In this document: positions 44 through 13,091 of the stretch, one piece after another
How positions within the stretch are numbered: position 1 is the stretch's first letter
Layout: the number at the start of each line of letters is the position of its first letter
Source: a virus
Virus record (IMG/VR): IMGVR_UViG_3300003702_000345
Coordinates: 1 to 20,736 of that record
Length of the DNA stretch: 20,736 nucleotides
Reading direction: 5' to 3' (one strand)
Notes under the pieces: generated by a model
What the model was told of the DNA's origin: nothing
Databases searched by the model: none
The model's input: only the letters and a program-made list of their open reading frames with translations
Program-made: the position numbers and the translations under genes

Positions 44-1168
44 ATGAAAATTAATCAAGTACTAGAAGATCATTATTCTTCCATGAAGCCCGGCGCTCGC
101 ATAGACCAAGAAAAAAAGGATAGGGAATTAGGTATTGGTCACGACTGGGAACTTAAACCAGGTGATACACAACCAACATATACAGGTAGTCCTGAAAATC
201 ATCCTCATCTACAACCATTAATTCCTCAAACAGATTTTATTACAGATATTCCCGCTGATAAAGGGGACAAGCCAAATCCTTATATAGAAAAACTTAAGGA
301 CCTTGGGGGATGGTATCTAGATACAGTAGTTGACGCTGGTAAATCTATAGGAAGAGGTATTAAAGACCAAGTAACAGGTACCCTGACAGGTGTAGGAGAT
401 TTTGGCAAACGTCGTTGGGATTCATTTAAACAAGACGTTGTAAATGATGATATAAATCGACTACGCACACTATCTGGTTTAAATGAAAAAGACGAAGATG
501 TTTGGGCATATAGTCCCCGGGGCAAAGGTGATATAGTTGCTAGAGTAGTTAAAACAGATCACGGGTTTCAAGTATATGTTCAAGGTCCGTATGGTTGGAT
601 AGCACAAGGACAACCACATATGAGTCAAGAAGAAGCACAAGAAGATGCAATGTCATTTTTTGAAGCAATTGACACGCTAGATGTAGATAAACTTAATGAA
701 GAACAATTCCTAGAAGTAGTATCTGTATTAGAATTGCACGACGAAGCACTTACTGAAGAACAACTTAATGAATTATGGCCAGCAGTAGCAGCTGGTGTAG
801 GAGCCGGTTTAGGTATGTGGGGTATTAAACAAGCGTCAAAGCCAAAAGAAGAACAGACATGGTACAAACTTTGGAAAAGATTCGGACCAAAGAAAGATGA
901 ACCAAAGAAAGATGTAGAAGAATCAGAGGAACTCAATGAAGTTCTTCCGCTAGTGATAGGTGGTGCGGCCGCAATAGGCGCAGGCGTTGCTGGTTATAAA
1001 TGGCTTAAAGGTCTTAAAAAGAAAACAAAAGATCGTAAAGATACACACCAAGATAAAATAGATCAAGCATTAAATGATTCTGTTGAACCTCAACCATGGT
1101 GGAATGATATGGATACCACTCTGCAAGAAATGAAAGCAGATATGTTAAGTATATCAAAAAAAAAATAG
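44..1168 (+). CDS. Unknown protein with two Gly/Ala-rich hydrophobic segments, probable virion protein
   Basis: I do not recognise this 374-residue protein. It has a polar N-terminus, a charged middle, and two similar modules: an acidic EELNE-type stretch followed by a Gly/Ala-rich hydrophobic segment and a Lys-rich patch, at roughly residues 235-275 and 292-330. The Gly/Ala segments could insert in membranes, as in ejected or inner-capsid proteins, but this is inference. The ATG at 44 follows a weak AAGG. The gene ends SISKKK-stop in a run of ten A (1156-1165). Removing one A, or reading +1, fuses it in frame to the downstream amidase, giving about 643 residues. It may therefore be the N-terminal part of a virion-associated peptidoglycan hydrolase. 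Confidence 0.8.
   Translation: MKINQVLEDHYSSMKPGARIDQEKKDRELGIGHDWELKPGDTQPTYTGSPENHPHLQPLIPQTDFITDIPADKGDKPNPYIEKLKDLGGWYLDTVVDAGKSIGRGIKDQVTGTLTGVGDFGKRRWDSFKQDVVNDDINRLRTLSGLNEKDEDVWAYSPRGKGDIVARVVKTDHGFQVYVQGPYGWIAQGQPHMSQEEAQEDAMSFFEAIDTLDVDKLNEEQFLEVVSVLELHDEALTEEQLNELWPAVAAGVGAGLGMWGIKQASKPKEEQTWYKLWKRFGPKKDEPKKDVEESEELNEVLPLVIGGAAAIGAGVAGYKWLKGLKKKTKDRKDTHQDKIDQALNDSVEPQPWWNDMDTTLQEMKADMLSISKKK
1156..1165 (+). other. A10 homopolymer: candidate slippage site or indel joining two reading frames
   Basis: Ten consecutive A follow the C at 1155. Upstream codons start at positions congruent to 2 mod 3 and the amidase frame starts at 0 mod 3. The amidase frame is open from 1149, just after a TAA at 1146, and reads through the tract with plausible protein sequence (VEATPITPEQYNQ) before its first start codon, a TTG at 1260. 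With nine A the two ORFs form one protein. Polymerase slippage on A tracts of nine or more is well documented in bacteria. A homopolymer sequencing error is the other explanation. Confidence 0.6.
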
Positions 1169-1259
1169 TATAGTTGAAGCTACCCCTATTACTCCAGAAC
1201 AATATAACCAAAATACGGCGTGGTACGACTCTTTAGAAACAGATCCTGAGATTGAACAC

Positions 1260-1976
1260 TTGTATGGTCCTAGGTCTATTAAATTTAGTGATACTATTAA
1301 AAAAGTAGACGGCTGGAACGACCATGAACAGCATAAAATAAATTATGAAGAAGCGTATCAGAAATACCTAAACACCAAAGACTTGTCGGATGCAGAAAAG
1401 AAAGCACTTGTAGATAAAGCTGGCACTTCTAGGGTATTAGGACGTAGGAACGGTGGCGAAAAACAATATATTGATATAGATCCTAAATGGGCAGTTATAC
1501 ATCATACTGCTAATAATCGCAAGGCTGACCATGACGGAACGAGTTATGCAGAAAAGTGGCGAGATACCGGAAAGGGAATACACTTTCTCGTTAGTCCTGA
1601 TGGTACAATACATCAAATACAAGATATAAAGAAAAGAGGTGTTCACACTGGACAAGCAAATACAGAATTTGGTAAAGATCAAAAAATTAGTAATATTAAT
1701 TCCTTTGGTATAGAAGTAGATGCAAAAAATGATAAACATGTTACTCTTGCACAACGAGAAGCAGTTATAAGATTACTAAAATTATTAGGTATGAAAGCTG
1801 AAAATATTGTCGGCCATGGAGAAATAAAAAATTCCAAACACGCACAAGCAGGCCAAACAGTCATTCAAAAAATTCGAGGAGCTGGTGAATGGTCATATGG
1901 AGATAGATATGATGTGGATCCAGGAGGAACGTGGATGTCACCATTACAGAGGCAAGACGTAGATCCTTCAATATAA
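1260..1976 (+). CDS. N-acetylmuramoyl-L-alanine amidase (Amidase_2/PGRP-type), probably the C-terminal part of a fusion
   Basis: This enzyme would cut the amide bond between muramic acid and the stem peptide in peptidoglycan. Counting from the TTG at 1260, a T7-lysozyme-like zinc amidase core starts near residue 77 with WAVIHHTA (first zinc His). It continues through FLVSPDGTIHQI, GVHTGQ and SFGIEVDA to VGHGEI near residue 186 (second zinc His). The usual third ligand, Cys or Asp before Pro-Gly, is not obvious: the equivalent stretch reads KHAQAGQTV. The TTG start has no clear ribosome-binding site, and coding-like sequence continues upstream to 1149, so translation as a fusion with the 44-1168 gene is likely. 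A virion-associated role in cell-wall penetration is more plausible than a free endolysin, but this is inference. Confidence 0.85.
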   Translation: MYGPRSIKFSDTIKKVDGWNDHEQHKINYEEAYQKYLNTKDLSDAEKKALVDKAGTSRVLGRRNGGEKQYIDIDPKWAVIHHTANNRKADHDGTSYAEKWRDTGKGIHFLVSPDGTIHQIQDIKKRGVHTGQANTEFGKDQKISNINSFGIEVDAKNDKHVTLAQREAVIRLLKLLGMKAENIVGHGEIKNSKHAQAGQTVIQKIRGAGEWSYGDRYDVDPGGTWMSPLQRQDVDPSI

Positions 1977-1988: not shown

Positions 1989-2059
1989 TAGACACGGGTC
2001 TCCATAGCCGCCGTCAATGTCCTCTGCATCCACGCTAGGCGTAGGGGGCCCACTTTTTT
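1989..2059 (+). ncRNA. Candidate structured small RNA, GC-rich, ending in a T-run
   Basis: The stretch 1991-2053 is 65% GC (41 of 63 by count), against 42% for the 60 bases before 1981 and 22% for 2061-2120. GGGTCTCC (1996-2003) can pair with GGGGGCCC (2044-2051) as an 8-bp closing stem including two G-U pairs. Inside is a small hairpin, ACGC-TAG-GCGT (2033-2043). Six T follow at 2054-2059, as at an intrinsic terminator. With the late-type motif just upstream this forms a short transcription unit without an ORF. It has no tRNA features. An alternative is a long-loop terminator for the amidase gene. Confidence 0.4.
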
Positions 2060-2069
2060 CAAAAAACAC

Positions 2070-2098
2070 TTGACATTTCTGTCAATATGCTTTAAACT
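2070..2098 (+). promoter_or_regulatory. sigma70-like promoter upstream of the replication genes
   Basis: TTGACA (2070-2075), a 17-base spacer, then TAAACT (2093-2098), which keeps four of six consensus -10 bases. A transcript starting near 2105 would have a short leader with TAGGAG seven bases before the ATG at 2132. It would drive the DsbA-like gene and polymerase. A TATAAT at 2109-2114 lacks a -35 at the right distance. Confidence 0.6.
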
Positions 2099-2131
2099 TA
2101 ATAAACAATATAATAACCATAGGAGCAAAAT

Positions 2132-2392: not shown

Positions 2393-5035
2393 ATGTACGT
2401 TGATGCTCTTTTTGATAGGGATCACGATACAATCCATGTTGTCGAAAGAATAGGCGGAAAGAGAAATTTCCGTAAATTCTCTGCTCAATATGTTTTTTAC
2501 TATTTTGACAGTAGAGGTAAATTTACTTCTATATATGGAGATCCTTTAAGTCGTGTCAACACGACTACAGGTAAACATTTTCATAGAGAAAAAAAATTAT
2601 ACAAACATAAGAAATTATATGAATCAGATATAAATCCTATTTTTAAATGTCTTAGTGAAAATTACGCAGATGGGGAAGCACCTACTTTACACAAATGCTT
2701 TTTTGATATTGAAGTAGACTTTGATACTAATAAAGGATTTGCGGATCCTTCGGATGCATTCGCACCTGTTAACGCCATATCTTTATACTTGAGTTGGATA
2801 GATAAGTTAATAACTCTTTGTATTAAACCAAATACATTAACAACGTTTGAAGGACAAGATATTGTAGATAAATTTAACGATACTATTTTATGTCATAATG
2901 AAGCAGAATTATTAGAAACATTTTTATCATTAATAGATGATGCAGATGTGTTAAGTGGTTGGAACTCAGAAGGATTTGATATACCATATATGGTCAATCG
3001 TACTGCTCGCATATTAGGTAAACAGCGAACACGTGAGTTTTGTTTATGGGGGCAACTACCTAAAAAACGTGAATATGAAAAGTACGGAAGAGAGCAAGCA
3101 AGTTATGATTTAAAAGGTCGTATTCATTTAGATTATTTAGAACTGTATAGAAAATATACATACCATGAAATGCATTCATATTCGTTAGATGCAATAGGAG
3201 AATATGAATTAGGCGAACGTAAAATTGCATATGATGGAACGTTGGATCAATTGTTTAAAAATAATTTTGAAACGTTTATAGAATATAATAGACAAGATTG
3301 TATACTACTTAAAAAGTTTGATGATAAGTTACAATTCATTGACTTGTCTAATGTGTTAGCACACGCTAATACAGTGCTAATACAAACTACAATGGGTGCT
3401 GTAGCAGTAACAGATCAAGGAATAATAAACGAAGCACACAGACAAAACTTAATTGTTCCTGATAAAGTACACGACAAGGATACAACGACAGCGGCTGGTG
3501 CATATGTTGCATACCCTAAAAAAGGAATGCATCATTGGATAGGTTCAATTGATATAAGCAGTCTGTATCCGTCTATTTTGCGTAGTCTTAATATGAGTCC
3601 TGAAACTATTGTAGGACAAGTTAGACAAACACTAACAAGAGAGTTATTAGAAAGCCATAACTATAAAATTGCTGAAGCATGGGAAGGTAAATTCTCTAGT
3701 CCAGAATATGATTTAGTAATGGAAAAAGATACTAATGTTATTTTAAATTTAGACTTTGAAGATAAAAGTACAATAGAAGCAACAGGAGCACAAATATATG
3801 ATATGGTATTCCATGGTGAACATAAATGGATGATTACTGCTAATGGTACTATATTCAAATATGATAAGAAAGGTGTTATTCCAGCATTGTTAGAACGTTG
3901 GTATCAAGAACGTACAGAACTTCAACGTAAAGCAAACCAAGCATTACAACACAAAAATAATATAGAGTATGAGTTTTGGGATAAGCGACAGTTAGTTAAA
4001 AAAATTAACTTGAATAGTTTATATGGTGCATTGTTAAATCCAGGATCACGTTTCTTTGATCAACGTTTAGGACAATCTACAACACTATGTGGTCGTAACA
4101 TTGTGCGACATATGAGTGCAGAAATAAACAAAATATTAACTGGTAAGTATGATCATGTAGGTGAAACAATTATATATGGGGATACAGATAGTTGTTATTT
4201 TTCAGCATACCCTGTATTTGAAAAAGATATCAAAGAAGGTAAACTAGATTGGAATAAAGAAAAAGCAGTAGAATTATATGATGCAATATGTAAGGAAGCA
4301 AATACTACATTTCCATCGTTTATGTCGAAAGCATTTAATGTACCAAGAGATCAAGGTAAACTTATTTCAGCAAGCAAAGAAACTATTAGTTCTGCAGGAA
4401 TATTCATTACTAAAAAAAGATATGCTGTATTAGTATACGATTTAGAAGGACATAGAGTAGATATAGATGAACCAGGAAAAATAAAAGCAATGGGTTTAGA
4501 TCTTAAAAGATCAGATACTCCAGCATATATGCAAACCTTTCTTAGTGAATTATTATTAATGACGTTAACAGATGGAACAGAAGAAACTATTATAGATAAG
4601 ATACAAGAGTTTCGTAACGACTTTAGAAACAAACCAAATTGGGAAAAAGGCACACCTAAACGTGTTAACAATTTAACAAAGCATACTAAAATATATGAGA
4701 AAACTGGGCGATGTGGTATAGGACATGCTATGGCCGCTATTAATTGGAACAAGTTACGTAAAATGTATTCAGACCGCTATAGTTTAGAAATCGTAGATGG
4801 TATGAAAACTATTGTATGTAAGTTACGCAATAATCCAATGAATATGACTAGTGTAGCATATCCTATAGATGAGTTACGCATACCAAGTTGGTATAAAGAA
4901 CTTCCTTTTGATAATGATGCAATGGAAACTACGATTATAGACAAAAAACTAGACAATTTGTTGGGTGTATTAAAGTGGGATTTACGTAAAAGTAAGACTA
5001 ACGAAGCATTTGATAAATTATTTGACTGGGCGTAG
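2393..5035 (+). CDS. 43: Family B DNA polymerase, T4 gp43-like
   Basis: The replicative phage polymerase, with 3'-5' exonuclease and polymerase domains (880 residues; T4 gp43 has 898). Exonuclease motifs are visible: FFDIEVDF with D105 and E107, GWNSEGFDIPY with D196, and YNRQDC with D302. Polymerase motif A is DISSLYPS (D387), motif B KKINLNSLYG near residue 540, and motif C YGDTDS (D597, D599). All catalytic carboxylates are present. The C-terminus ends in an aromatic tail (LFDWA) like the clamp-binding end of gp43, which fits the clamp gene following 34 bases later. The ATG at 2393 has no strong ribosome-binding site. Confidence 0.97.
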   Translation: MYVDALFDRDHDTIHVVERIGGKRNFRKFSAQYVFYYFDSRGKFTSIYGDPLSRVNTTTGKHFHREKKLYKHKKLYESDINPIFKCLSENYADGEAPTLHKCFFDIEVDFDTNKGFADPSDAFAPVNAISLYLSWIDKLITLCIKPNTLTTFEGQDIVDKFNDTILCHNEAELLETFLSLIDDADVLSGWNSEGFDIPYMVNRTARILGKQRTREFCLWGQLPKKREYEKYGREQASYDLKGRIHLDYLELYRKYTYHEMHSYSLDAIGEYELGERKIAYDGTLDQLFKNNFETFIEYNRQDCILLKKFDDKLQFIDLSNVLAHANTVLIQTTMGAVAVTDQGIINEAHRQNLIVPDKVHDKDTTTAAGAYVAYPKKGMHHWIGSIDISSLYPSILRSLNMSPETIVGQVRQTLTRELLESHNYKIAEAWEGKFSSPEYDLVMEKDTNVILNLDFEDKSTIEATGAQIYDMVFHGEHKWMITANGTIFKYDKKGVIPALLERWYQERTELQRKANQALQHKNNIEYEFWDKRQLVKKINLNSLYGALLNPGSRFFDQRLGQSTTLCGRNIVRHMSAEINKILTGKYDHVGETIIYGDTDSCYFSAYPVFEKDIKEGKLDWNKEKAVELYDAICKEANTTFPSFMSKAFNVPRDQGKLISASKETISSAGIFITKKRYAVLVYDLEGHRVDIDEPGKIKAMGLDLKRSDTPAYMQTFLSELLLMTLTDGTEETIIDKIQEFRNDFRNKPNWEKGTPKRVNNLTKHTKIYEKTGRCGIGHAMAAINWNKLRKMYSDRYSLEIVDGMKTIVCKLRNNPMNMTSVAYPIDELRIPSWYKELPFDNDAMETTIIDKKLDNLLGVLKWDLRKSKTNEAFDKLFDWA

Positions 5036-10129: not shown

Positions 10130-10804
10130 ATGTCAGCAATTGCAACAATTATAAAAAAACGAATAGCCAAAGATAAAGGTAAATTCTTTTGTAACGATAA
10201 CATTTCTAAATATATTAAAAATGAAACTGAACTATCTTGGATAGAACGAGATGTTAAAGAAAAACTAGAAGAACTATTAGAGTGTCTTGTTATTGATACA
10301 AAAAACGATCATAACACACAAGAAACTGCCAAACGTATGGCTAAAATGTTTGTACATGAAATATTTCGTGGCAGATATAGAGAACAACCAAAAATAACTA
10401 CATTTCCTAATGCTACAAATTATGATCAACTATATATAACAGGTCCTATTTCTATTAGAAGTACTTGTGCTCATCATTTCCAAAATATTGTAGGCAAAGC
10501 ATACGTAGGAGTGTTTCCTGGCAAGGAAGTAATAGGGTTAAGCAAGTTCAATCGTCTTATACATTGGATTGCAGAGCGTCCACAAATACAAGAAGAAATG
10601 ACAATGCAAATTGCAGACGCTGTAGAAGAAGTAACAAATGCAGATGGTGTTGCTATTGTATTAAGGGCAGAGCATATGTGTATGACACACAGAGGAGTTA
10701 AAGAACACGAATCTGATATGACAACATCTGTGATGCGCGGTGATTTTAGGAACGATCCCGAACTTAAGAAAGAATTTTTAACGTTAATGCAGGAGATGAG
10801 ATAA
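10130..10804 (+). CDS. folE: GTP cyclohydrolase I (FolE)
   Basis: Converts GTP to dihydroneopterin triphosphate, the first step to both folate and 7-deazaguanines. This 224-residue protein, about the family length, carries STCAHH with zinc Cys C113 and H115/H116, the VIGLSKFNRL core, the RPQIQEEMTMQI helix, and HMCMTHRGV with the second zinc Cys C184. The usual CEHH reads CAHH here, so the Glu is replaced while the zinc and catalytic residues remain. Here it most likely feeds DNA modification, given dpdA, queE and queD remnants nearby. It has its own promoter and overlaps the next gene by TAATG. Confidence 0.95.
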   Translation: MSAIATIIKKRIAKDKGKFFCNDNISKYIKNETELSWIERDVKEKLEELLECLVIDTKNDHNTQETAKRMAKMFVHEIFRGRYREQPKITTFPNATNYDQLYITGPISIRSTCAHHFQNIVGKAYVGVFPGKEVIGLSKFNRLIHWIAERPQIQEEMTMQIADAVEEVTNADGVAIVLRAEHMCMTHRGVKEHESDMTTSVMRGDFRNDPELKKEFLTLMQEMR

Positions 10805-12236: not shown

Positions 12237-13091
12237 ATGAAGTTCCGTTATACGGAGATTTTTTATAGTGTACAGGGAGAAGGTAAATTTGTCGGAGTAC
12301 CTTCTGTATTCTTACGAATGTTTGGTTGTAACTTTACATGCCAAGGTTTTGGCATGCCTAAAGGAGAATTAAGCACAGAATATTTAGATGTAGATCCTAG
12401 CAATTATAATTCTTTAAACGAACTGCCATTGGTTAGAACAGGTTGCGATAGTTATGCAAGTTGGGATGCACGGTTTAAAGATTTTACAACATCTATTGAA
12501 ACAACAGAAGTAGTAGAAAAATTATTATCATACACACCAAATAATAGATGGATAGAACCAATTGGTGATCAAGATATACATTTAGTTATTACTGGAGGCG
12601 AACCTTTATTACCAGGACAACAACGTAGATGGCCAGAGTTATTTAGGTTGCCAGGTATGGAGAATATAAAGAATGTTACATTTGAAACAAATTGTACACA
12701 ACTACTGCGAGATAGTTTCGTTGATTTTCTTACAGTTGAAGCAGGATTCGAAACAACTTTTTCCTGTAGTCCAAAACTTTCAGTATCGGGCGAGTCTTGG
12801 GATACTGCAATCAATCCTGAAGTTGCATTGGATTACTTTTCTATTCCTGGTAGCAATATGTACTTCAAGTTTGTTGTCGCTGACGAAATTGATATGGCAG
12901 AAGTTGACAAAGCGATTCTCGAATTCCAACATAAGGGTGTTAGTGCGCCTACGTATTGCATGCCAGTGGGTGGCTGTGAAGCTGAGTATATGGAAAATAG
13001 AACGAAAGTTGCGGAAGAATGCCTCAGAAAAGGTTACCGTTACTCGCCGAGATTACATGTAGACTTATTTGGAAATAATTGGGGAACATAA
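12237..13091 (+). CDS. queE: 7-carboxy-7-deazaguanine synthase (QueE), extended cluster loop
   Basis: A radical SAM enzyme contracting 6-carboxytetrahydropterin to CDG. The N-terminus YTEIFYSVQGEGKFVGVPS (residues 5-23) is typical QueE. RMFGCNFTC supplies C31 and C35, but position 38, where the third cluster Cys is expected, is Phe. The expected CDSY appears at C70 after an insertion, so the motif reads C-x3-C-x34-C instead of C-x3-C-x2-C. ITGGEPLL (the SAM-binding GGEP) follows, then FETNCT and SCSPKLSVSGE. At 284 residues it is longer than most QueE proteins, as expected from the insert. It begins right after the queD remnant's stop and overlaps the next gene by TAATG. Confidence 0.9.
   Translation: MKFRYTEIFYSVQGEGKFVGVPSVFLRMFGCNFTCQGFGMPKGELSTEYLDVDPSNYNSLNELPLVRTGCDSYASWDARFKDFTTSIETTEVVEKLLSYTPNNRWIEPIGDQDIHLVITGGEPLLPGQQRRWPELFRLPGMENIKNVTFETNCTQLLRDSFVDFLTVEAGFETTFSCSPKLSVSGESWDTAINPEVALDYFSIPGSNMYFKFVVADEIDMAEVDKAILEFQHKGVSAPTYCMPVGGCEAEYMENRTKVAEECLRKGYRYSPRLHVDLFGNNWGT

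Follow-up and report, generated by a model that had tools for sequence, protein, structure and literature searches.

A candidate poly-A slippage site that may add an amidase domain to part of a phage protein, seen at two related loci with opposite shifted frames

Transcriptional slippage on poly-A runs is known to generate two products in a set ratio from bacterial genes and IS elements. In Citrobacter rodentium tssM1, an A11 run gives rise to mRNAs with 10-15 A's and to two needed products whose ratio matters, and its relative, Yersinia tssM3, also has a poly-A slip site, an A9 run at which a 15-25% shift occurs (PMC4256274). A nascent hairpin stimulates slippage in an IS (PMC5009743), and on the A runs examined in one system with E. 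coli RNA polymerase no deletion rescue was seen and slippage was generally low (PMC6260861). In the part of the literature that we covered, we found no description of poly-A slippage for double-stranded DNA phages, whether in a virion gene or in one for lysis.

The stretch of DNA that we analysed, referred to here as the window, is an entire virus record of 20,736 bases, and this record is probably a fragment. The DNA polymerase that it encodes is of the T4-like type, and among named phages its closest matches are in giant ones, for example Sinorhizobium phage Phosso (48% identical). Window positions 10130-10804 encode a GTP cyclohydrolase I (PF01227, 9e-52) and positions 12237-13091 a QueE-like radical SAM protein (phrog_2076, 2e-50), a pair that may serve to make 7-deazaguanine, perhaps to modify the phage DNA. 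Scans for Rfam families and tRNAs returned nothing, and T4 late-promoter-like matches were no more frequent than expected by chance. The features at the junction considered here, with their counterparts in the related contigs L002, L003, L005 and L006, are as follows.

44..1168, + strand: upstream open reading frame (ORF) encoding the short 0-frame product of 374 aa, with homologues in L002, L003 and L005/L006
1104..1156, + strand: possible nascent-RNA hairpin, weak, with inner stem UCUGC/GCAGA and an outer stem that ends at the tract
1156..1165, + strand: A10 tract, candidate slippery site, adjoining a stop codon; the same tract lies at 4711-4720 in L003
1166..1168, + strand: TAG stop of the 0-frame product; L003 has TAA at the equivalent place
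1167..1259, + strand: amidase-frame segment from the tract to TTG 1260, coding-like by codon log-odds and alignment, containing YDSLE[S/T]DP and lacking a usual start
1260..1976, + strand: N-acetylmuramoyl-L-alanine amidase region (Amidase_2), in frame +1 relative to ORF 44-1168, with TTG 1260 as its first common start

The final codons of ORF 44-1168 are TCA AAA AAA AAA TAG, and the amidase frame (1155 CAA, 1158 AAA, and so on to 1973) is open across the tract. A sequence-only reading had reported this A10 and its in-frame TAG, an amidase frame that runs through the tract with no ATG before the domain and TTG 1260 as its first common start, and the union of both frames upon loss of one A; the sequence and the ORF list bear out all three, as a tract of A9 would give a single 643-residue fusion, and A12 would also join the frames. 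The same reading had called the upstream protein virion-like, a label that was not confirmed, since searches of Pfam and PHROG with this protein returned no match, and we can only infer that it is a virion protein.

We scanned 2.9 million viral contigs for relatives of the upstream gene and found them in four, L002, L003, L005 and L006, the last two being identical along the compared stretch. Searches of viral contigs for further carriers using the window amidase, an amidase profile and the L003 amidase yielded nothing beyond this set, as did searches with an upstream-protein profile and two DNA anchors, and neither tblastn against 50,697 phage records nor a search of bacterial genomes added any. 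The arrangement of a tract followed by a shifted amidase was found at two loci only, the window and L003; the L002 contig ends ahead of the junction, within a tandem repeat. Tandem repeats in coding sequence are seen in this region at L002 5970-6152, where the repeat may hide the junction, and at 61-180 of another contig with the same backbone, L004.

The DNA of L003 is 94% identical to the window from position 1973 on, and that of L005 is 93% identical from position 2003 on. Within window 2000-2100 an inverted repeat of high GC content (GGGTCTCC ... GGGGGCCC) precedes TTTTTT, and behind this comes a promoter-like site (TTGACA-17-TAAACT) ahead of a small gene at 2132; the region is similar in L003, L004 and L005, and one transcription unit probably ends there and another begins. 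The upstream gene of L003 encodes 517 aa (57-63% identical), with about 145 residues (roughly 3878-4310) that are extra compared with the window and L005, and it ends CCA AAA AAA AAA TAA, again an A10 directly followed by a stop. The amidase behind it is only 35% identical to that of the window at the protein level, and its frame reads AAA AAA AAA ATA ACT GAA, which is reached with A11 (or A14) and not with A9. Because the sequence that separates the tract from the amidase is not the same at the two loci, opposite shifts are needed from the same tract and stop position. Directly upstream of the tract 14 of 60 bases differ, and the tract is shared in part through common descent of the end of the upstream gene. 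The upstream gene of L005/L006 lacks the A10 and finishes with ...GATATGTTGAAATAG (DMLK-stop), and no Amidase_2 match was found in the whole L005 (53.5 kb) and L006 (29.3 kb) records. The amidase-less homologue ends at the same point, so that the short product counts as a full protein in its own right.

These comparisons bear on the concern, raised in the sequence-only reading, that the tract length might be wrong. Homopolymers are error-prone and the record comes from an assembly, and the real tract could be an A9 within a plain fused gene. The count of A's in the homologous phage weakens this: L003 was assembled separately, has the same A10 and stop and uses the other shifted frame, so that an error there would have to be the opposite one (A11 misread as A10) in the same place, while L005/L006 show a natural gene end at this point. 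We thus consider a sequencing or assembly error very improbable. A decaying gene, whose amidase is no longer produced, would account for the missing usual start and for variation among the predicted zinc ligands, of which the HHT and GH/RH histidines are present, while the third position, taken from an alignment to 6srt and a pairwise alignment, holds a His in the window and a Ser in L003 (the canonical set being His, His, Asp or Cys). Against decay, some 270 codons are open in the amidase frame at both loci and are conserved at the protein level, and we regard this reading as the least credible of those weighed here. It is the repetition of the arrangement in L003 that makes both artefact and pseudogene unlikely.

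We then examined where coding in the amidase frame begins. The domain itself is clear at both loci (PF01510; E 3.1e-16 and 60.3 bits in the window, 49.6 bits in L003, cut-off 26), and an AlphaFold model of the amidase (pLDDT 38.8) was too poor for use. Using the codon usage of the other window genes as reference, the coding log-odds of positions 1167-1259 were +4.2 in the amidase frame, and the remaining two frames scored -14.1 and -17.2; between the tract and ATG 4756 of L003 the corresponding values were +2.1, and -7.9 and -8.9. The amidase frames of both loci have YDSLE[S/T]DP in common, which in the window lies upstream of TTG 1260, and the local alignment score of the segment was reached by none of 5000 shuffles. 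Conservation between the two amidase frames was 0.55, 0.59 and 0.39 at codon positions 1, 2 and 3, respectively, and the third position being the least conserved is the pattern expected for a selected protein. In both the window and L003, the coding potential of the amidase frame sets in at the tract.

This coding signal is one difficulty for the view that the amidase is a separate gene, begun at TTG 1260 in the window or at ATG 4756 in L003 and perhaps coupled to the upstream stop. The L003 ATG is in frame and about 33 bases past the stop, the homologous upstream gene has the same stop position in amidase-less relatives, and the conserved motif of L003 lies downstream of ATG 4756, so this codon could still act as a start. 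However, no Shine-Dalgarno-like (AGGAGG-like) site was found before either TTG 1260 or ATG 4756, the window motif and coding signal precede TTG 1260, and a separate gene leaves the retained A10 unexplained; we judge this explanation distinctly unlikely. Homologues in which an ATG and a ribosome-binding site belong to the amidase itself had been named in the sequence-only reading as evidence against slippage, and L003 is not such a case: the ATG is there, but a Shine-Dalgarno-like site is absent and the coding signal begins at the tract. If slippage does operate at this junction, gene callers would still label the amidase a separate TTG gene or a pseudogene.

To put the tract itself in context, we compared it with composition and with related sequence. 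Dinucleotide shuffles of the window gave an expectation of 0.79 A10 runs on both strands, and 44% of shuffles held at least one, so by composition alone the window A10 is unremarkable. Chance could therefore yield it on its own, and its recurrence in L003 argues against chance; the run is striking only when set against the coding sequence of related phages. Across the retrieved loci, 900,561 bases that include duplicates and a few unrelated contigs and count L003 twice because it was retrieved twice, runs of at least ten A's occurred only at the window and L003 junctions, and these were also the only places in the same bases where an ORF ended on an A-run of at least eight with another long frame open through it. 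Among 762 ORFs from the window and 81 related loci, Lys-Lys-Lys was written AAA-AAA-AAA in 5 of 89 instances, compared with about 32 expected from the use of AAA for 71% of Lys, a count that includes some spurious reverse-strand ORFs, overlapping triplets and two junctions of shared ancestry. Two of the five all-AAA triplets carry an A10, in agreement with the two junctions, and these phages apparently avoid AAA-AAA-AAA elsewhere. The junction has the sequence features of known slippage genes, namely an A/T run of at least about nine, a nearby 0-frame stop and conserved shifted-frame coding from the run onward, and the run is kept in relatives beyond expectation, as judged from two loci only.

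The locus as a whole is variable between conserved neighbours (window 44-1976; L003 3170-5526; L005 5566-6582; L004 1-640): on backbones that are 93-94% identical in DNA, it holds one kind of amidase, another kind, none or, in L004, apparently a different gene. Changes of tract length in the phage DNA, toggling the amidase fusion between particles, would fit such a variable locus, and long homopolymers mutate quickly and the window and L003 require different lengths. Both assemblies are nevertheless A10, which is the off state in DNA, and random states would seldom both be exactly ten; phase variation of this kind therefore seems quite improbable to us.

A-runs are classical sites of -1 ribosomal shifts, and the ribosome rather than RNA polymerase could slip on the run or on the stop that follows it. 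Such a -1 shift would lead straight to the L003 amidase frame, and the 0-frame stop directly behind the run would favour a slip. The window, however, calls for a shift of +1 or of -2 at this run, so that only L003 fits a -1 shift, and we found no strong stimulatory RNA structure downstream of the tract (z of -1.06 in the window and -0.13 in L003). Programmed ribosomal frameshifting is on these grounds unlikely, and transcription is the likelier level of slippage. Upstream, a hairpin abutting the tract is predicted at both loci, with weak support in the window: there it has -10.7 kcal/mol, a value matched by about 16% of window positions and thus not significant, and its L003 equivalent has -15.4 kcal/mol, matched by 2% of positions.

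Taken together, we propose that the A10 is probably a maintained slippage site that adds Amidase_2 to part of the product. The sequence-only reading had suggested slippage with a +1 shift; the A10 and stop of L003 and the lack of Shine-Dalgarno-like sites strengthen the slippage part, whereas the +1 direction holds for the window only and is opposite in L003. Assuming slippage by the polymerase, we infer two products in unequal ratio: most transcripts would keep A10 and encode the short protein, whose end coincides with that of the amidase-less homologue, and a minority would lose or gain A's, to reach A9 or A12 for the window and A11 or A14 for L003, and would encode this protein extended at its C-terminus by Amidase_2. 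A run that slips in both directions could serve the frames of both loci alike, and a spread of lengths around A10 like that of tssM1 would produce the fusion from A9/A12 in the window and A11/A14 in L003. Given that no deletion rescue was seen with E. coli RNA polymerase, the window may depend on the insertion of two A's. Through such a site, the phage would equip a small share of the copies of a structural or ejected protein with an enzyme and leave the main form undisturbed.

In the fusion, the amidase would share the destination of the N-terminal protein, and the N-terminus allows a guess as to where that may be. The start of the ORF 44-1168 product, MKINQVLED, resembles the capsid-targeting propeptides of T4 (putative cleavage MKINQVLE-D), sharing with T4 internal proteins a short N-terminal MK... 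stretch and an (L/I)xE-like site, a likeness of the N-terminus only; in T4 internal proteins the propeptide targets the head and is cleaved after glutamate, and fusions to the T4 capsid-targeting sequence become packaged and reach the host (PMC9026906). Several N-termini in a gene cluster at L005 893-6582 and L002 1156-5011, nearly all of whose members have no family match, read MK-(F/I/H)xx...(I/L)xE and likewise recall the T4 propeptides; just upstream in L005 they include MKFKEVMTE-A, MKIHDIINE-S and MKHKNISE-G, the MK...(L/I)xE pattern having been picked after the sequences were seen. No match to the prohead protease family Peptidase_S77 was found in eight contigs, all of them fragments, an uninformative search in that no control gave a signal. 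Our guess from the N-terminus is that the fusion might reside in a T4-like head and be ejected into the host, and if head-targeting applies, a few amidase molecules would enter the envelope together with the DNA. More tentatively, the site could be a hypervariable cargo site of a T4-like phage, in which a gene for a packaged protein has a conserved poly-A slippage cassette at its end and enzyme domains are swapped downstream of it; as the run would slip both ways, new cargo could be made as a low-level fusion whichever of the two shifted frames it occupies, a possibility that we consider doubtful.

Among described systems, tssM1 of C. rodentium offers a close likeness, with a poly-A run followed by a 0-frame amber stop, a domain in the shifted frame, and short and extended products. 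It is a bacterial T6SS gene for which RNA and protein were measured, while the phage junction is known from sequence; in tssM1 28 nt separate the run from the stop and the long form is canonical, whereas in the phage it is the short form that is canonical, the extension brings in an enzyme, and the shifts needed at the two related loci are opposite. Slippage of bacterial RNA polymerase on a homopolymer likewise yields a pair of C-terminal variants at a set ratio from dnaX of Thermus thermophilus and the T3SS genes of Shigella (PMC5009743), but these are bacterial genes, and in dnaX the long form is the one read in the 0-frame. In phages, lambda G-GT and other tail chaperones also obtain a C-terminally extended minor product by frameshifting (PMC5009743); these differ in relying on a ribosomal -1 shift and in being tail chaperones in which an enzyme domain is absent. 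The kind of mechanism is thus already known, and we rather think that the loci described here are a new instance of it, in which a single phage type has two loci that would need opposite shifts from the same run.
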